A stretch of DNA of 64,000 nt from Cytospora piceicola (lineage: Eukaryota; Ascomycota; Sordariomycetes; Diaporthales; Cytosporaceae). Under the pieces are notes generated by a model. It was not told the DNA's origin. It did not search any database and saw nothing but the letters and a program-made list of their open reading frames with translations. Shown piece by piece: positions 1 to 21,332 of this stretch. The stretch is from assembly GCA_023375675.1 (NCBI GenBank), contig JALQBC010000008.1, positions 1-64,000 on the forward strand, given 5' to 3'. Position 1 is the stretch's first letter; every line of letters begins with the position of its first letter. The position numbers and the translations under genes are program-made.

Positions 1-110
1 ACCCTAACCCTAACCCTAACCCTAACCCTAACCCTAACCCTAACCCTAACCCTAACCCTAACCCTAACCCTAACCCTAACCCTAACCCTAACCCTAACCC
101 TAACCCTAAC
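1..110. repeat. Telomere repeat array (CCCTAA)n
   Basis: About 18 uninterrupted copies of CCCTAA (TTAGGG on the other strand), beginning at base 1 and ending abruptly at TAACTGACCC. This is the canonical telomere repeat of filamentous fungi, in the orientation expected at the left end of a chromosome. The window therefore starts at a physical chromosome end and everything that follows is subtelomeric. Confidence 0.98.
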
Positions 111-3228: not shown

Positions 3229-5328
3229 TTAGAGTCTCTCACGGCTTGTTTTCTCCTCGGCTGGCTTTTGAAACATCTCAACCTCCACGATCCTAGCCTG
3301 GAGTTCCTGCAATTGCGGAGCAGTCCGCTTGTCCTGCCACCACACAACACCGATCCACAGGACAAGCATAACAGAGACAACGGTCATGGCAATAGTACCC
3401 TTCCGGAATCCCTTTATCGTTGTGATTAGCGTTTGGATTTTATAATTCATAGAGGTAAGCCAGTACTTACAGTTGCCGCATCAGTTGTCGGGTAAAGAAC
3501 GATCCCCCAGAAAGCAAAGAGCACAGAAGAAGCGCCTAGATAGTTGTTAGAATAAGTATAGGAGAGACAACCTGAACGGATACTTACCATTCATAGAATA
3601 TAGGATAGTAGCACGCGCAGCATCATCTCCAGTCCGTGATAATATGTTGCTCGCCCAAATGAAGGTAACCGGCTGAATCAAGTAGGCAGTTCCAGCCAGA
3701 TCTACACCGCTTAGTTTTTTCTCTTTTCTTTTTCTCACTTTGTATCACGCCATCTGCATCCGTTTTGGTGTGTTGAAAACATACAATATGCGCCCATTTT
3801 GGCTCCTGTCCCCACCACGTTCCAGCAGAGAAGGACAACGCAGGCGATGATCTGAACGCCGCAGGCAAATAGTCCGAACGGAGCATGGCGTCCTGTAGCA
3901 TCAATTCCCACAGACGTAAGGAGTGTGACCACGATGCCTAAAACTATTCTTAGTTTTCTTCGCTTCAGGGTCATCTATGGAAGATGATACCAACCGATTG
4001 CGGTAAGTCCAAGAGGGTAGGTGTTGTTCTGCGGAACGGTGAAGAGCCCTGATGCTCGCATCCAGAGGAGCATGCACGATTGTGTAGAAAAGGCTTCGAG
4101 AGCCCCTCCAATTACCCAGAACATCGTGAAGATCCAACTAAGAGGTATATGAGCATCAATTCATGCGATATAAGGAAGGGAACAGCGGACTTACAAATTC
4201 GGCGTTAGAAGGACCCGCTTGATCAGCGAAATCCCGATATTGTGGCCCTCTGGGTTCTTAAGGGGCAAACGACTTAAGGCGAGTTGGCGCTCGTGCGGCT
4301 TGAGGTAGAAAGCTTTAGTTGACTCTGGGAGATCGGGGAAGAAGATGAAGCCAAAGATAGCCACTGGGACCGTGATTAAGCCATCGATGATGAATGACTA
4401 TTTAGATATCAAGGTCAGCCGGTTGTGATAGAACAATCTTCATATGGCCATCCACTCACCCATCTCCATCCGGCCAACCCAGAGACCCCGTTCATAGTCT
4501 TCCAAATAGCAGTCATCATGACACCTAAAACAATGTTTTAGAAAGAAATCCTCACATGGTTAGTAGAAACTTACCAGAAAACATAGTTCCAACCATTCCT
4601 GATGCCTGGAAGAGGCCGATTCGCTTTCCGACCTCGGACCCCTTGTACCAACTCCCAATGATGTACTGCGTACCGCTGTAGGTCGATGCTTCAATCATCC
4701 CTTGGAAGAATCGTACGGCGGCCAGAGAGCTGAAAGAATCACAGGCAGCACAGACCATAGTCAGGCCAGACCAAATGAGCGTCATCAAAGGAAACCAGAT
4801 GCGAGGAGGAATCTTCTGGATAGCTAGGCCATGCGGGACTTGCCCAATAATATCTACTTTCTGTGAGTCTTATGATAAACTTGAATCCAAGATAGGAACA
4901 GATATTACAGCCGACTGAAAGACATGTTACCAACAGGTTGTACTGGTTGCCTTCGAGGTTGATATCTTCTTTCATTCCAGACACATAGGCGTTGGCTAGG
5001 ACAGCACGGTCTGCCATAAAGACAGATCAGTTGACTTGTACTGGAGCAGTGTGAGGACGAATCCGACGAAGCGTACCGAGGTAGTTGAAAAAGAAAGCGG
5101 TACAGCAGTATGTCTAGACAGACCGTCAGCAATCGTGTAGAGGGAGGGGGCAGTGTGCGGTTGAGAGTCTTACTAGAATAGTAGTATCGATCTTTTGTAA
5201 AAGCTGAGAAGATGAAGTGTTAATTATCCGATTTCCTGTGAATAGGGCTGGAAACTCACTTTCCGCTCTTCTGGGGTCTCGGGCAGTTCACCCCAAACCG
5301 CAACGCGAAGATCGTGGAGTTTGCCCAT
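3229..5328 (-). CDS. MFS transporter, ACS family (Dal5/allantoate permease type)
   Basis: Predicted polytopic membrane permease of 480 residues. Twelve exons on the minus strand: 5328-5260, 5203-5174, 5113-5077, 5010-4909, 4853-4575, 4524-4460, 4397-4195, 4137-3995, 3937-3785, 3701-3588, 3535-3471 and 3411-3229, totalling 1443 nt. All introns are GT..AG and 50-83 bp. The start at 5328 (MGKLHDLRVAVWGELPETPE) leads into the family signature EERKLLQKID, then FFNYLDRAVLANAYVSGM and a following GNQYNLL. Later segments FQASGMVGTMFSG, AGWRW, FPDLPEST and NNTYPLGLTAIG are typical of fungal Dal5/Liz1-type anion:cation symporters. It is divergent from the murQ homologue across 555 bp. ACS carriers move organic anions, so the carboxylated sugar anhydro-MurNAc is a plausible substrate; that is inferred from context only. 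Confidence 0.9.
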
Positions 5329-5883
5329 GGCGTTTCTTGCTTCAAGGTAATCAAGGCAGCTGGGAGTTGATCTAGGCTGGTTGACCACTTCGCTGAGGTC
5401 AATGTTTTAAGGAGACGATCAGCCAAGGTCGGGTGGCAGTCGCTGAACACAGGACACAGGGCGATATCATCCAAAATGGCAAGATAGTCGACACTATTAT
5501 TCTATCTTTAATTAACGTATCTTTGAGTCGCCGAGTTCTCTCATCTAGAATCAACCTTCGTATCTAGCATCTCGCCAATCAACTTGGGCAACAGATGGGC
5601 CGAGTCCCGGGGACCTGGACGTGACTCTTAACACGGTAAAGATATGCAGATGATAAGAAAACAGAGCCCAAGTAGTTCGGCAGAAGCATCTGCCGATAGT
5701 GGGGGATGGAATGGCTTTTGCCGAAGATGGAAGAATGGCTGCCGCCCCATCCGCCGATGCTCAGGTGCTGTAGATAGTCGATGCCTAGATAATACAGCGA
5801 ACACATCGAAGTCGAAAGTCAGCGGATGGAGATCGTTTCTTTCGCATATGTTCATGATTACCATTCTGACACGATTCAACGCT
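5329..5883. promoter_or_regulatory. Divergent promoter region of transporter and murQ homologue
   Basis: A 555-bp non-coding interval between two head-to-head start codons (5328 minus, 5884 plus). It contains the palindrome described separately and further CCG/CGG triplets around 5720-5765, the usual half-sites of fungal Zn2Cys6 regulators. Shared control of transporter and catabolic genes is inferred from this layout. The in-frame extension of the murQ frame upstream to 5644 lacks family similarity and is probably leader. Confidence 0.55.
5678..5695. promoter_or_regulatory. CGG-N12-CCG palindrome, candidate Zn2Cys6 operator
   Basis: CGGCAGAAGCATCTGCCG has perfect 7-bp arms (CGGCAGA/TCTGCCG) around a 4-bp centre. 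Inverted CGG triplets at fixed spacing are the standard binding form of fungal binuclear zinc-cluster activators. It lies about 190 bp upstream of the murQ start and 350 bp upstream of the transporter start. Function is not shown by sequence alone. Confidence 0.4.
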
Positions 5884-7149
5884 ATGACCGTCCATCTAGC
5901 CACCCTGCAAACGGAGCAGAAGAATTCCAGAACGACGAATATCGACACCTTCTCTTCCCTGGAACTATGTCGTAAGATGGCACCCTATCACACCACAGAG
6001 ATAACGTGCCATGTGCTAAGATATAACGCAGAGGTTATCAATGAGGAGGATCATACCGTAGCCACAGCTGTCAAGACATGTCTGCCTCAAATCGCCGCCG
6101 CCATCGACGTTATTGTGCCTCGTCTTTTGAAGGGCGGCAGGGTGGTCTATACCGGGGCAGGAACGAGTGGAAGGTAACGACTTTCCATGGATTCTACATA
6201 GCGGTCCTTGAGGGTTAATGCTTACTGTTTTCTCTCAGACTCGGTATTCTCGATGCATCTGAAATGTAAGTCCGATCACACTGCGGCCAAAATCTGGGTA
6301 TCACAGAGTTGCTTTGCCTTTGGCTCACCACAGCCACAGTCCCCCGACATTTTCATCGCCGCCAGGACAGTTCATTGGCTTGATCGCAGGTGGCGATGGT
6401 GCAATTCGAAATGCCGTAGAGGGCGCGGAAGACTCGGATCAACTGGGCGCAGCTGATCTCTCATCATTATCGCCCCCTCTCTGCAAAAACGATGTCCTCA
6501 TAGGCATCGCTTCTTCGGGACGAACCCCTTATGTCTTGGGCGGCCTGAAGCATGCTCACCATGTAGGAGCTGCCACCGTCGGCCTGGCATGTGTGAAGCC
6601 CAGCACGTTCGAAGGGCTCTGTGATATCCTGATCGAGTGTGTGACCGGGCCAGAGGTGGTTACAGGCAGTACCCGACTCAAGGCAGGAACGGCAACTAAG
6701 ATGGTACGTACGCCCGCTGTGTATTATTAACTATATCGTGTAGAGGTGATGCTAAAAAGACAAATTGGCGTCCAGATTTTAAATATGATCTCGACAGGGT
6801 CGCAGATTCGCGTAGGCAAGACTTTCGGGAATATGGTCAGTCTATCCAAAATTTGCCTTGATAACACAGCTGCTGACACTGACTGAGAATGAAGATGGTA
6901 GATTTGAAAATATCAAACGAAAAGCTACGGGACAGGGCGCGTCGTGTAGTGCGGGCCGTGGTCCCCCCGACGTCGGCTCTTGACGTCGAACAGGAGGAAG
7001 TGTTAGATGAGGTACTGGCCCGTTGCGATGGGAATGTAAAGCTCGGCATCCTTGTAGCCACCTTGGGATGCTCTCCGGAGGAGGGCAGGACGAAACTACA
7101 AGCCTTAACAGGATCGCTGAGGCGGGCGTTAGCCCAAGAGGCGATATAA
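5884..7149 (+). CDS. murQ: N-acetylmuramic acid 6-phosphate etherase (MurQ family)
   Basis: Predicted cytosolic SIS-fold lyase of 311 residues. In bacteria MurQ cleaves MurNAc-6-phosphate to GlcNAc-6-phosphate and D-lactate. Six exons: 5884-5971, 6032-6173, 6239-6265, 6340-6703, 6776-6835 and 6895-7149 (936 nt); the third is only 27 bp. Family motifs follow in order: NIDTFSSLEL (19-28), GRVVYTGAGTSGRLG (65-79), LDASEIPPTF (81-90), NAVEGAED (110-117), IGIASSGRTPYVLG (140-153), GTATKMILNMISTGSQIR, GKTFGNMMVD and NEKLRDR. Glu85 and Glu116 match E. coli catalytic Glu83 and Glu114, with identical 31-residue spacing. Start 5884 (MTVHLATLQTEQKN) aligns with the family N-terminus. It lies 469 bp upstream of the anmK homologue on the same strand. 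Five spliceosomal introns argue against bacterial contamination. Confidence 0.93.
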
Positions 7150-7618
7150 AGCCGCCAAAGCTTTAGCTTTGATTAAATTTTCATTTTTCTCGCAAGACAA
7201 ACATGAAGGCGGCACTGTATTAAGCAACGTCTTCTCGTAATGACCATTACCGTTCAGGAAACATGCCCCCCAGCTGCTATACAGTACACTTCTGGTCCCT
7301 GGATGCCTTGGGGGTGATACTTGCGCCCCGTGAATGCAGCGTGAAATGCCTGGTCGCGAGCCAAAGAATTACTTTGCAGATATCAAGGCAATCAATCATA
7401 TTTTGACTTCTTATCATGTAGGGCTTACGGGAAACCAGAATGGGACACATGGCACCTCCTGATCCACTAAAAAACTCATTAATACCCTGCTACGATCTCC
7501 CCCCGCCCAGACGAACAGAACTTTGACAAAACATCGCCACGGCCACTGCTTTAATAGCCCTGCAACGTTTATACAGACTCTGGTGGCAACCACCATATTG
7601 AATCGAGTCTATTGCAGA
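7150..7618. other. murQ-anmK intergenic spacer
   Basis: The 469-bp gap between two genes transcribed in the same direction holds the 3' end of murQ and presumably the anmK promoter. I see no ORF with coding character, no repeat and no obvious copy of the palindrome found upstream of murQ. Confidence 0.5.
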
Positions 7619-9245
7619 ATGGTGACTCTCGATGTCCTGGGATTAAATTGCGGCACAAGCGTTGACGGTAAGCTGTTTTCACTAATTAATATACCAACTC
7701 ATAGACCAAGCTGTGATCTATGCACATCAGCAGCCTTTCACTCCGGCGTTCCTTGCTCCCCTGTGTTGCGTGGCTACTGGGAAGAAGAAGCATCTTGCTA
7801 ATAATGAATCACATCGGTAGGCGTCGATGTCGCGCACTGCCGTATCTCTTCGGTGCCATCTTCGAATGATGTGAGAATCGAATTGCTCTCGTACACCGAA
7901 GTTGCCGTGGACCCAGCCATTCGCTCCCAAGTCCTTCGCTTATGTAGGCCCAACCAAGAGGTCGCGGCTACTACTATGGCAGAAGTGTGCGACCTCAACT
8001 TCGCGCTGGGGAGAGAGTTCTCCCGCGCAATCGAGGAGTCCGGAGTCGACTTAGCACAGGTCGACCTCGTTTCCAGTCATGGACAGACACTGTGGCACCA
8101 GCCGTTGGGAGAACAACGATCGACGCTGCAGATGGCGGAACCTGCCGTGCTTGCGCAAAAGACAAGAAGGTATGTCTCACAGAAACCTACCGGATGTCCT
8201 TTTTCTTAACGATATATCAGGACCGTTGTTTCCGGCTTTCGGGTTGCCGAGCTGGCCGCGGGGCGCCAGGGTGCTCCGCTATCTGGGTTCTTTGAAGCTG
8301 GTCTTCTCTCCCAGCCAGGGTTGACAAGAATCAGCCAGAATATTGGCGGAATGGGTGCGTATATAAATAGGAAGATCAATTTATTTTACTTATTTCTTTT
8401 TAAATATGGAAATGGGTTCGGCACTCTCATATTCTTCTGCCTGCTTCAAGTTTCATTTGTAACCAAGGTCAGTTTGTTAACAACCCTCATACATAGGCAA
8501 TGCAACCGTGCTGCTGGACCGCGGCAAGACCGGGCCGAAGGTGTCTTCTACTACTTACTTTGCCTTCGACACCGGCCCGGGAAATGTTTATATCGATGCT
8601 GCGATGCGTATTCTGACCGACGGCCAACAACACTATGACCGTGACGGCGCTCTCGGCGCTCAAGGCGAATCACAAATCGATATGACCGTTGTCAACGAAT
8701 ACCTGGCAAACGAGCCTTATTTTCACCGAAAGCCACCGAAGACCACAGGACGAGAGCTCTTCTCCGATGATGTCGCTCGAACATTGGTGGAGAAAATGAG
8801 GTCCAAAAGCAGGTCTCCGGAGGCGATTATTGCCACAATTACTCGCATAACGGCGGAGTCGATAGCTAGGGCATATCAAGATTTCGTTGTGCCACTGCTT
8901 CGCGAGGACGGCAAAATTGATGAGATCTACATCTGTGGAGGCGGAGCATACAATCCCAACATTCTGCGGCACCTCCAAGCCCGGTTCCCTAGGAGCCGGG
9001 TCTTAAGACTCGAAGACGCGCCGATCAAACTCGATGCAAGTGCGAAGGAGGCAGTCCTGTTCGCGCTGCTCGGCTTCCTCTGTGTATGCGGCCGAATTGT
9101 TCCTATCGCAGCAGACGCGGAAACTACCGAATCTGCTATCTTGGGTGTTATTACCCCTGGAGACAACTACCGCGATATACTACAAACGGTAGTCCAAGAC
9201 CAAGAATTTACCAACGGACGTATCTTAGGGCGTGTTCTCTTGTAA
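7619..9245 (+). CDS. anmK: Anhydro-N-acetylmuramic acid kinase (AnmK family)
   Basis: Predicted cytosolic ASKHA-fold kinase of 426 residues. Bacterial AnmK hydrolyses the 1,6-anhydro bond of anhydro-MurNAc and phosphorylates it to MurNAc-6-phosphate, the substrate of MurQ. Four exons: 7619-7667, 7821-8169, 8221-8354 and 8497-9245 (1281 nt). Motifs: [14 protein letters not shown] (8-21), [11 protein letters not shown] (101-111), [15 protein letters not shown] (139-153), NIGGMGNATVL (173-183), [12 protein letters not shown] (201-212), [12 protein letters not shown], then [14 protein letters not shown] and a C-terminal [10 protein letters not shown]. Asp202 in DTGPGN corresponds to the catalytic Asp of bacterial AnmK. 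The first intron (153 bp) splits GTSVDG from VDVA. It is encoded downstream of murQ in the same direction, the pathway's preceding step. Confidence 0.93.
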
Positions 9246-11362: not shown

Positions 11363-11869
11363 ATGCGTTCTCAATCTACTATCTTAGCCTCTGTGGCTTT
11401 CTTCCTGTCTATATTTACAGACCCTACCGCCGCCAGTCAGGACCACGTCCTTGCCTGGCCCGCCGGTCTCCCCGGCTGGGGGTATATTGAGGTCGACCGC
11501 GAGGGATTCGCCTATGCTATCGGAAAACCTACCAACCCAGAGGTATCTAGCTTCCTCGAGAAGATGCCGGAGGTCCAGATTGTCCAACGTCAGAGTCCAG
11601 CCGGCCTTGATGAACCCTGCACCAATCCCCACGACTTTCATTCCAACGAATTTGTCAGGGGCTTCTACTGCCTTCCCGACGGCATAGAGCCGGATCAAGT
11701 GGAGCCGGATCAGATGGAGACCGATGATGTAGCTGAGGGCGCGCTCAGCGGTGCGTCGGAATTAGGATTGATGGAGTCCTCGACAGCGCCTTTTGAGAGC
11801 TGCCTCGAATGCGTGTTCAAGTGCCTCTTCTCACTTCCTTTCTGTTACCACAAGTGTAAGATGTGCTAG
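11363..11869 (+). CDS. Small secreted cysteine-rich protein, effector candidate
   Basis: Intronless gene for a 168-residue protein of no family I recognise. The N-terminus MRSQSTILASVAFFLSIFTDPTAASQ is a typical signal peptide (hydrophobic core about 7-18, cleavage near 24-25). The mature part has Cys in DEPCTNPHDF and GFYCLPDG, an acidic stretch with repeated EPDQ and ending METDD (around residues 111-122), and a cysteine cluster at the C-terminus (SCLECVFKCLFSLPFCYHKC, then KMC). Signal peptide, small size, even-numbered Cys pattern and subtelomeric position are the usual profile of fungal secreted effectors or antimicrobial proteins. Role unknown; that class assignment is inference. Confidence 0.75.
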   Translation: MRSQSTILASVAFFLSIFTDPTAASQDHVLAWPAGLPGWGYIEVDREGFAYAIGKPTNPEVSSFLEKMPEVQIVQRQSPAGLDEPCTNPHDFHSNEFVRGFYCLPDGIEPDQVEPDQMETDDVAEGALSGASELGLMESSTAPFESCLECVFKCLFSLPFCYHKCKMC

Positions 11870-12590: not shown

Positions 12591-14367
12591 CTATTTCTTG
12601 TTTGCAACGTCTGTGAAGAGATGTGTTAGTCGTTAGTCCCAACATCCACGGGCATTCAAATAAACTCACTGAACTGGAAGTGCATAATGTCTCCGTCTTG
12701 GACGACCTATGAAGAACGTGGTGTTAGCAACCGAGTCAATCACTGATAGCAGTCATGGGCCTCGTCCGGAGAGCATGCATACATATGTCTTTCCTTCTTG
12801 CCGGTACTTTCCAGCAGCTTTGATAGGAGCCATGGACTTGCCACCCTCACAGAGGTCGTGGAAGTCTTGGTACGCAACAACTTCAGCCTTAATGAACCCC
12901 CTTTCGAAGTCGCCGTGGATACATCCAGCGGCTTGGGGCGCGAGACAACCTTTCTGTACGGTCCAGCATCGGATCTCCTTCTCACCAGCTATTGCGAACG
13001 AGTCAGCTCGGATATGCTTAACAAAGCAGAGGATCTTGCTGCACTTACCGGTGAAGTAGTATTGCAGGCCCAGCTTAGTGAAACCCTCGGTGATGATCTT
13101 GTCCAGCCGACTCTTGACCTTGCTCTCCTTGAGGAACTCTCCTTGTTTGGCGGGATCATCCTTCATGCTGTAGAGCTTTTCCTCGAACTCGACAGAAAAC
13201 GGGATAACATCCCGAGGGAGGCCTCCATGCTCGGTGACCCATTTGGCAATGGGTGCCAGATACTTGCACTTCTGTCTCAGATAGTCCTTCATGGTTAGGT
13301 TGACGAGGTAGATGACTGGCTTGGTTGTGATGAGCTGGATCTTCTCGTTGATGAGTGCGATCTCCGCCGGTGTCCAGCTTCCATCCCGGACCGGCTTGTC
13401 ATGTTCCAACATCTATTAGACAGAGCTGTCAGCATTATTTCGGAGACGAGTTTCATTGGGTTCCGTTATCTTATCGGTGGTACTTACTTCTTTGATCTTG
13501 TTTGTTGTCTCGGTAAAGAGGGGCAGCATCTTATACTTGCCTCCTGCCTTTCTCACGATGGCTTCCTCAGCAACAATGGTCTTCTGCAGAATATCTATAG
13601 TAGATCCACAGCTATTAGCGAGAGACCGGCAGTGACTGGATCATGGTCGAGACTAACCTAGATCCTTCTTGCAAAGCTCGCTTTGGATGGTATCTAGAGA
13701 GACACCGATTAACTTCCTCCGCCTCGATAAGCCCAGGACATGAACTGACTTAAGTCTCGGACGGGATCGATAGAGTCGTCGACGTGCAACACCTCATCAT
13801 TATCGAATGCTCTATCGGACAAATCGGTTAGCACATGTAAAACATAAGAGCTCCGTCCTGCAGATAAGGAGTCTCGTACCTCACAATGTGAAACATGCCA
13901 TCGACAGCCTGGATGTGAGAAAGGAAGGCGTTTCCAAGTCCCTCTCCCTGCGAGGCACCTCTGATGAGTCCCGCAATATCCGTCACTTGTAGAAAGGCTG
14001 GATACATGGAAGGCGGCTTCCAGAGATCACACAAGAAGTCCTGTTGAATTTCGTGATTAGTACATGTAAGCGACCAGTTGACTCGACCCATTGGGAGTGC
14101 TATTGCCCAACCACCCATGACGAGCATCACATCTCAGCTGCTAAAACTTACGTATCGGGCATCAGGCACAGCACATCTCGCCTCGTTAGGCTCAATGGTG
14201 CAGAACGGATAGTTCTCAGCCGCCGCGCTCTGCTCCGTGAGAAGATTGAACAGACTAGACTTGCCCACATTTGGCAGGCCGACGCATCCCATTTTTAGAT
14301 TCTTGCGAACTCTCCCAAAGGCGACGACATTGTCCTTGACATCCTCGGTGGCTTTCTTAGGAGGCAT
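12591..14367 (-). CDS. Obg-like ATPase 1 (Ola1/YchF)
   Basis: Conserved cytosolic P-loop ATPase of the TRAFAC class, OBG/HAS superfamily, linked to ribosomes and protein homeostasis. Start at 14367 ([20 protein letters not shown]). Walker A is [15 protein letters not shown], followed by [35 protein letters not shown] (switch II), [35 protein letters not shown], helical-arm residues [15 protein letters not shown], the base-recognition strand [16 protein letters not shown], and the TGS-domain [20 protein letters not shown] ending [26 protein letters not shown] and stop at 12591. I traced at least seven introns, all joinable in frame; the last exon encodes only VANKK. The housekeeping gene appears intact. 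The 5' boundary lies about 220 bp from the MITE-like element. Confidence 0.93.
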
Positions 14368-19576: not shown

Positions 19577-21332
19577 ATGGTGAGGTTTACTGGCTTCTTA
19601 AGGACCCTGCCATTTGACGATAAGTCGCTAACGCTCACAGTAGGCTCCCCAATTCGAAAGAGATCCGTTCAATAGTAAGACGGACGAAGTCGTCACAAGG
19701 ATTCTGAAGGAACTGCACGTTCCCGGTGCCGCATTGGCTGTCGTTGATGGTGAGAAGACATGGTCGAAAGTATGCTCTGTCCAGGCTGTTTACACTTTCC
19801 ACGAATACGGAGCTTACAACGCTCGATAGGGATATGGAGTGGCCGATGTTGATTCCCAAGTCGTCATTACTCCCAAAACGCTATTTTCCTGCGGTGAGGC
19901 CCCTCTGGCAATTCCTTCTAGCTCCTTTGCATGTACTAACGAGGATATGGTGCCTCTCAGGAAGCGTCACCAAGCCCTTCACGGCAGCCGCAGCGGCGGT
20001 GCTGGTCAACGACGAGAAGCATGCCGATATCACCTGGGAAAGTCACATGTGCGACTTGATTCCAACTGATTTCTTCCTCGCCGACGAGTACGCCACCAAG
20101 CATGTCACCCTCGAGGACTGTCTCAGTCATCGTACTGGTATCGCCACCCATCACGCAGAATTGGGCGGCCATTCCCTGAAGCAAAACGTCAGGAACCTGA
20201 GGCATCTCGACCTTGCGGAGGAGTTACGAACCAAGTGGCAGTACTCTAACCACATGTATCAGGCCGTGTCTCTCGTGATCGAGGAGAAGACCAAGCAAAC
20301 GCTCGGTGAATTCATGCACGACAGGCTATGGCAGCCCTTCCGCATGAAAACGACATTCCTCGGTGTTCAGGACGCACTTGCGTATCAGAGGTCGCACCCG
20401 CATGTTGGGATTGCCGCACGGCATATGTGGGATGAGGAGGCGAAAACATTCAAGACGTTGCCCACCTGGGATGACCTCGGCTTAAGTGGAGCTGGGGCGA
20501 TGATATCCAGCGTCGAGGACTGTGCTGAGTGGATCCGGGCTTTTATCGAACAGAAAGCGCCAATATCCGCCAAGGGTTATGAGACGTTGACAAGTGCACA
20601 CATGATATCGAAGACGAGATCGCCTCGGTTCACAGGTCCGGTGTGCTATGGCCTTGGATGGTACGTCGCGATATACCACGGTGAGAGGGTAATCTACCAC
20701 CCCGGCGGTCTCATTGGCTCGGTGGCCAGTTTGATCATTCTCCCGGATCGCAAATTTGGTGTCGCAGGAATGTGCAATATCACGAATGAGGAAGCCCTCG
20801 ATGCGGCCATGTGGCATATCATTGATGAGCACCTTGGAGTGCCTGAGGATTCGAGGACAGACTTTATCCAAGAGTAAGTCCACTCTTGAACATTGCAGTC
20901 GCTTGCTTTGAGCTAACCTGCCAATAACGCAGAGCAAAGGAGGGGCTCCAAGGCATGAAATACTTCGCAGAACATGCCAAGGATATTATGTTTCCCCCTG
21001 AGAGCGTTCAACAGCCAGTTCTTCCGCCGTCGGTGTCAATGACACAACTTCTCGGGTCTTATTGTCACCCGGCTTATGGGACCATCATCATGAAAGAGTA
21101 CGATGAGCAGGTCGCTCTACACGGGGCGTTCCCGGGAAGGCTGCCGCTCGACCCCCTGGTTCTGGAGCATATCAATGGCGATTGTTTCCTAGCCAGAGCC
21201 GACCTCGTGGGGTTCATACCGGTCAGAGCCAAGGCGGCCTTCAAAGCCGATGTAGCAGGCAACTCGCTTAGGTTAGGGGTTGAATTCTCTGAGGGTCTGA
21301 CTACTTGGTTTGAGCGTAATACAGATGTGTAA
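19577..21332 (+). CDS. Beta-lactamase/penicillin-binding-fold serine hydrolase
   Basis: 501-residue protein of the class C beta-lactamase/transesterase family. Five exons: 19577-19579 (only the ATG), 19644-19769, 19830-19893, 19961-20873 and 20933-21332 (1506 nt). The start is an ATG followed at once by a GTGAGG intron; splicing gives MAPQFERDPFNSKTDEVVTRI. Catalytic motifs: Ser66-x-x-Lys69 in LFSCGSVTKPFTAAAAAVLV (61-80), Tyr159-Ser160-Asn161 in KWQYSNHMYQ, and YHPGGLIGS as the third-motif equivalent. A C-terminal domain of about 130 residues (LLGSYCHPAYGTIIMKEYDE onward) resembles the lipocalin-like domain of this family. No signal peptide, so probably cytosolic. Substrates in fungi range from esters to acyl transfer in secondary metabolism (LovD-type). 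Intact beside a decayed biosynthetic locus. Confidence 0.9.

Follow-up and report, generated by a model that had tools for sequence, protein, structure and literature searches.

A permease, a MurQ protein and an anhydrosugar kinase encoded beside a telomere of Cytospora piceicola: a probable fungal cluster for the use of a bacterial wall sugar

The window analysed here is a stretch of 64,000 nucleotides from the fungus Cytospora piceicola (assembly GCA_023375675.1, contig JALQBC010000008.1, positions 1-64,000, forward strand) that begins at base 1 of its contig, labelled C79 in the genome that we searched (43.6 Mb, 99 contigs). At 3229-9245 it carries three genes, for a permease, a MurQ protein and an anhydrosugar kinase, which the original prediction had taken for an acquired subtelomeric cluster devoted to muramic sugars of bacterial cell walls. 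We report that this locus is real and coherent, and that the trio is probably a catabolic cluster for the bacterial-wall sugar 1,6-anhydro-N-acetylmuramic acid (anhydro-MurNAc). The features concerned are the following:

1..110, no strand: telomeric repeat array (ACCCTA)18.3, perfect hexamer copies at the contig end
3229..5328, minus strand: major facilitator superfamily (MFS) permease resembling the anion:cation symporter (ACS) type, 480 aa, 12 exons (5328-5260, 5203-5174, 5113-5077, 5010-4909, 4853-4575, 4524-4460, 4397-4195, 4137-3995, 3937-3785, 3701-3588, 3535-3471, 3411-3229), Pfam MFS_1 E 9e-34
5329..5883, no strand: intergenic region of 555 bp between the permease and MurQ start codons, by its position a putative two-way promoter
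5884..7149, plus strand: MurQ, 311 aa, 6 exons (5884-5971, 6032-6173, 6239-6265, 6340-6703, 6776-6835, 6895-7149)
7619..9245, plus strand: AnmK/LGK-fold anhydrosugar kinase, 426 aa, 4 exons (7619-7667, 7821-8169, 8221-8354, 8497-9245)

The predicted placement by a telomere is borne out by the 18.3 perfect hexamers in the first 110 bases: the trio starts about 3.1 kb from the telomere, and its members are the first recognisable genes inward from it. The permease and MurQ genes diverge, while MurQ and the kinase follow each other head to tail on the same strand, 469 bp apart. As predicted, the three genes contain introns and are intact, all of them being open once the GT-AG introns are removed. 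The fungal origin of the window is shown by the introns, the telomere and the neighbouring genes; the trio is not bacterial contamination because introns and telomere share the contig, and its G+C content is similar (48-52% in the genes, 51% in the rest of the window). Pseudogenes were likewise rejected, since the frames are open after splicing and conserved columns are retained. In a search of the C. piceicola genome at E 0.001, the MurQ (PF22645) and kinase (PF03702) families were each found at this locus only.

The identity of MurQ was confirmed with TIGR00274, the NCBIfam equivalog for N-acetylmuramic acid 6-phosphate (MurNAc-6-P) etherase, whose cut-off of 302 bits is passed with 354.8 bits. 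A gene model with an upstream start and an unspliced in-frame 60-nt intron (5972-6031) was rejected: splicing out this segment raised the score from 335.2 bits to the present value and gave an N-terminus that fits the bacterial one. Glu85 and Glu116, which we take to be the catalytic residues, are both retained, exactly at the predicted numbers and with a spacing identical to that in HI0754. The top solved relatives, in a search run with the intron-retaining model, were HI0754 and proteins named MurNAc-6-P etherase. The protein thus belongs to the MurNAc-6-P etherase family, and we infer etherase activity from its sequence.

The permease looks most like carriers of anionic sugars of the ACS type, in agreement with the prediction. 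Its top solved relative is the D-galactonate transporter DgoT (E 1.4e-7), and its top NCBIfam model is TIGR00893 (2A0114), at 114 bits and under the cut-off of 395.

In the pathway that we propose, the permease would import the anionic sugar anhydro-MurNAc, and the kinase, judging from its homology, would open the anhydro ring with phosphorylation at O6, yielding MurNAc-6-P, with Asp202 activating water as we assume it does in the AnmK-type mechanism. MurQ would then split the lactyl ether to give N-acetylglucosamine 6-phosphate (GlcNAc-6-P) and D-lactate, and a deacetylase and a deaminase would carry GlcNAc-6-P to fructose 6-phosphate. Candidate genes for these last steps are present elsewhere in the genome, about 15 kb apart on contig C10: a PF01182 match read by eye as glucosamine 6-phosphate deaminase, and a NagA-like gene whose main exon scores 192.8 bits, under the TIGR00221 cut-off of 225.65. 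A second PF01182 match, on contig C7, looks by eye like 6-phosphogluconolactonase. As for the release of the sugar, a genome search at E 0.001 gave no GH25, SLT or NamZ domain, other wall-cleaving families lying outside this search; the fungus therefore probably uses anhydro-MurNAc freed by bacteria rather than attacking whole walls itself, and would have to rely on other organisms for anhydro-MurNAc or on hydrolases outside those searched. We know of no fungus that makes peptidoglycan, so that a muramic route of import, kinase and etherase would be genetic evidence of bacterial walls as food.

The kinase had been predicted to be AnmK, and this holds for its fold but not for its plain identity. 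It matches Pfam PF03702 (AnmK) with 230 bits over residues 6-398, well beyond the gathering score of 24 bits, and Asp202 stands at the predicted number within DTGPGN. It is, however, not plainly an AnmK: it groups with the fungal levoglucosan kinase (LGK) of the yeast Lipomyces starkeyi (100/99) and falls short of the cut-off in each of the 14 NCBIfam equivalogs for AnmK (at best 339.8 bits, for a cut-off of 387).

We therefore placed both enzymes in trees with bacterial relatives. For the kinase, the window kinase and LGK were aligned, one genome per bacterial or archaeal species was scanned with the alignment, and the best 80 loci were considered. These were mostly from Chloroflexota; the first was Ktedonobacter sp. 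SOSP1-85, whose kinase is also the closest found by sequence (46-49%). A 59-row tree, built from 55 of the best 80 loci and four others, joined the window kinase and LGK in one clade (100/99), sister to Ktedonobacter (100/90) and within Chloroflexota. When more genomes from the class of the Ktedonobacter genome, which we take to be Ktedonobacteria, were added (51 rows), the two fungal kinases, again one clade (100/99), had the complete set of 8 Ktedonobacteria kinases as their sister group (97/90). Kinase genes occur in 8 of the 47 Ktedonobacteria genomes, and in all eight murQ lies downstream on the same strand, at about 0.2 kb in six and at 1.06-1.18 kb in two. The three genomes with the top kinase matches are also those with the three top MurQ matches. 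In Ktedonobacter sp. SOSP1-85 (locus L011, 5226-15280) the row consists of a solute-binding protein, two permeases, a NamZ exo-muramidase, AnmK, MurQ, a GH3 glycosidase and a GNAT protein; as read from its sequence, this is a compact wall-sugar salvage operon in Chloroflexota. Across the best 80 loci, one or more relatives of MurQ, NamZ or GH3-NagZ turned up in 52, a count that stands without a control set for comparison. Tree and synteny indicate that the fungal kinase descended from an AnmK like those of Ktedonobacteria, encoded beside murQ. A single ancestor of bacterial type, predating the divergence of the two fungi, probably gave rise to both LGK and the window kinase, though two fungal rows are also compatible with a later fungus-to-fungus transfer. 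The prediction of an acquired cluster thus stands as regards enzymes of bacterial type; as the Lipomyces kinase lies on the same branch, a recent private acquisition of the window kinase is improbable, as far as two fungal rows tell.

MurQ is likely of bacterial source as well. In trees of 71 rows (a 100-row tree minus 29 long or near-identical rows), the corrected MurQ fell into one set with 46 Chloroflexota rows (99/88, starred), and the remaining rows were all bacterial. Grouping it by constraint with 17 Ktedonobacteria rows was not rejected (AU p 0.061); with the intron-retaining model, the same constraint was rejected (AU p 0.017), as was a constraint with four of those rows (p 0.007). 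A placement on long branch L123, obtained with the intron-retaining model in the 100-row quick tree, is probably an artefact. The top match among 301 Chloroflexota genomes was the Ktedonobacter gene (56%, 273.5 bits), nearly equalled by the top ones among 199 Bacillota genomes (53-54%, 270.8 bits); of these 199, 43 had a match at E 1e-30 or better.

We next compared the kinases residue by residue, using the 64 columns with at least 97% constancy across 42 murQ-linked bacterial kinases, with 52 other bacterial kinases alongside. The window kinase keeps 54 of these columns and LGK 52. Five are kept in the window kinase and lost in LGK (His109, Thr118, Gln120, Thr181 and Ala200), three show the reverse (columns 11, 132 and 143), and seven are altered in both fungal kinases, Gly148 to Arg among them. 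His109, Thr118 and Gln120, located in and directly after the SHGQT motif, are each present in 42/42 murQ-linked kinases, whereas LGK has Leu, Ala and Thr there; with this one LGK sequence as the standard, none of the LGK residues at the three positions is present in the window kinase. Since the same residues are nearly constant in the other bacterial kinases (51/52, 43/52 and 51/52, respectively), they mark the bacterial family and not murQ linkage itself. Their loss in LGK would fit the reportedly smaller number of contacts between LGK and its sugar, in comparison with AnmK.

Several findings weigh against assigning the trio to anhydro-MurNAc. The top solved relative of the kinase is LGK, with which it shares 44% identity (PDB 4yh5): LGK chains 4zxz and 4yh5 matched with 332 and 323 bits, versus 131 for the best bacterial AnmK. 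As a control for the AnmK cut-offs, four bacterial kinases were tried, and all pass NF007148 (438, 440, 507 and 447 bits for the cut-off of 387; three of them adjoin murQ); LGK residues 14-407 fail (371.5 bits), and the window kinase scores lower than LGK, so that its overall profile brings it no nearer to bacterial AnmK than LGK stands. Arg148 (in AAGRQGAPL) is common to the window kinase and LGK, while 94/94 bacterial kinases have Gly; Glu386 and Thr387 are likewise common to the two. In the available part of PMC9476349, six fungal proteins (four AnmK-labelled, two LGK-labelled) were assayed in yeast for levoglucosan kinase activity, and the AnmK-labelled kinase of Rhodotorula toruloides alone was clearly above the empty vector. 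Linkage to murQ is, moreover, not general: among the best 80 bacterial loci, 28 carry murQ on the same strand no more than 1.2 kb away, in 12 it lies at a greater distance or on the opposite strand, and 40 lack it, 31 of the latter with a downstream flank of 2.2 kb or longer. Finally, MurQ sits among Chloroflexota without a firm donor, and its five nearest tree rows are Chloroflexota outside Ktedonobacteria, all five kinase-linked. The repeated MurQ tree makes a source shared with the kinase somewhat easier and the linkage count makes it somewhat less general; our estimate is therefore unchanged.

The main rival that these findings raise is levoglucosan use: the kinase would be a levoglucosan kinase, permease and kinase would serve levoglucosan or another neutral anhydrosugar, and MurQ would be an unrelated neighbour. 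The identity and clade shared with LGK, the three residues common to both, the lower AnmK scores and the Rhodotorula activity all favour it. Yet the window kinase retains, and LGK has lost, three residues that do not vary in the 42 murQ-linked kinases; levoglucosan use leaves no role for the intact MurQ alongside, of which no second copy was found in the genome; and an ACS-type permease would fit an acid better than a neutral sugar. On balance we regard levoglucosan use as unlikely, and prefer anhydro-MurNAc as the substrate because of the residue pattern and the adjacent MurQ. A kinase accepting both levoglucosan and anhydro-MurNAc, at a locus serving a wider anhydrosugar diet, would suit the mixed residue pattern (54 of the 64 columns kept here, 52 in LGK), but sequence cannot separate it from the other readings, and we rate it a lesser prospect still. 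That MurQ has turned into a regulator or sensor without MurNAc-6-P cleavage, like the related animal glucokinase regulatory protein (GKRP), with which it has the SIS fold in common, is very improbable for a protein of bacterial length with one SIS domain, both glutamates, 59 of the 63 columns with at least 95% constancy across 99 bacterial MurQs and a score above the equivalog cut-off.

The anhydro-MurNAc reading places a pathway known from bacteria in a new context and ties it, by ancestry, to the levoglucosan kinase of fungi. As in bacterial anhydro-MurNAc salvage (AnmK and MurQ, in Ktedonobacter beside NamZ and GH3), both enzyme families are adjacent; unlike in Ktedonobacter, the fungal genes have introns, MurQ precedes the kinase, the transporter is of the MFS and not the ABC type, and no NamZ domain was found in the genome at the threshold given above. 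The L. starkeyi LGK resembles the window kinase in overall identity, clade and Arg148, and differs from it at His109, Thr118 and Gln120.

No description of a fungal AnmK-MurQ cluster was found in the full-text literature searched, most subscription journals being outside its coverage, and the terms muramic, peptidoglycan, AnmK and murQ are absent from the main text of two fungal-transfer surveys (PMC11708051, PMC11898892). Partial precedents exist. In the available part of PMC13320244, Camponotini ants are reported to have taken up murQ from Spiroplasma, a transfer of murQ that its authors describe as unreported before; as here, a bacterial murQ has become fixed in a eukaryote, but the ant gene is named there without a kinase or permease, whereas the fungal murQ adjoins both. 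AnmK-labelled genes lie beside MFS genes in Aspergillus nidulans (AN3498/AN3499, within a deleted stretch of roughly 100 kb close to the end of a chromosome) and in Zymoseptoria (ZT1E4_G1889/G1890), as the kinase and permease families do here, but no adjoining MurQ appears in the available tables (PMC8762651, PMC7317419). Another fungal MurQ annotation, g1905 of Monascus purpureus, was assigned by its authors to chitin biosynthesis, the accessible text mentioning no kinase or cluster (PMC9159588), and in Ophiostoma novo-ulmi a gene labelled AnmK is upregulated in mycelium according to the portion available of PMC4632067.

These comparisons lead us to a wider proposal, which we put forward tentatively and consider possible rather than probable: the entire fungal levoglucosan-kinase family would derive from an anhydro-MurNAc kinase like that of Ktedonobacter, fungi that keep an adjacent MurQ would retain the ancestral job, and levoglucosan activity would be a side or derived use. 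The question matters since the best-studied fungal relative of the kinase is known for another sugar, levoglucosan. The kinase ancestry points to an evolutionary origin of fungal levoglucosan kinases, the natural substrate of which is open to question, and the window contributes a further eukaryotic murQ besides that described in ants in 2026. If the wider proposal is true, some fungi feed on a bacterial wall sugar, and a physiological role would be offered for fungal AnmK-labelled proteins.

A simple motif search of the 555-bp region shared by permease and MurQ gave nothing useful. Between the telomeric hexamers and the permease lie about 2.8 kb of A+T-rich sequence that hold two further arrays:

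684-2096, just inside the telomere: degenerate four-base array (Tandem Repeats Finder), unit TACT, about 346 copies, about 1.4 kb
2123-2780, between the four-base array and the first gene: 219-base unit in three tandem copies, 90% matches

The 219-base unit had no match when compared with a plasmid collection. Farther inward, an open reading frame at 11384-11869 encodes a small protein without a Pfam match, possibly a secreted one, whose start looks signal-like and whose end looks rich in Cys when inspected by eye. It is followed by a minus-strand reading frame with a YchF-GTPase C-terminal domain (12753-13409) and by a subtelomeric beta-lactamase-family protein (PF00144) at 19708-20874.

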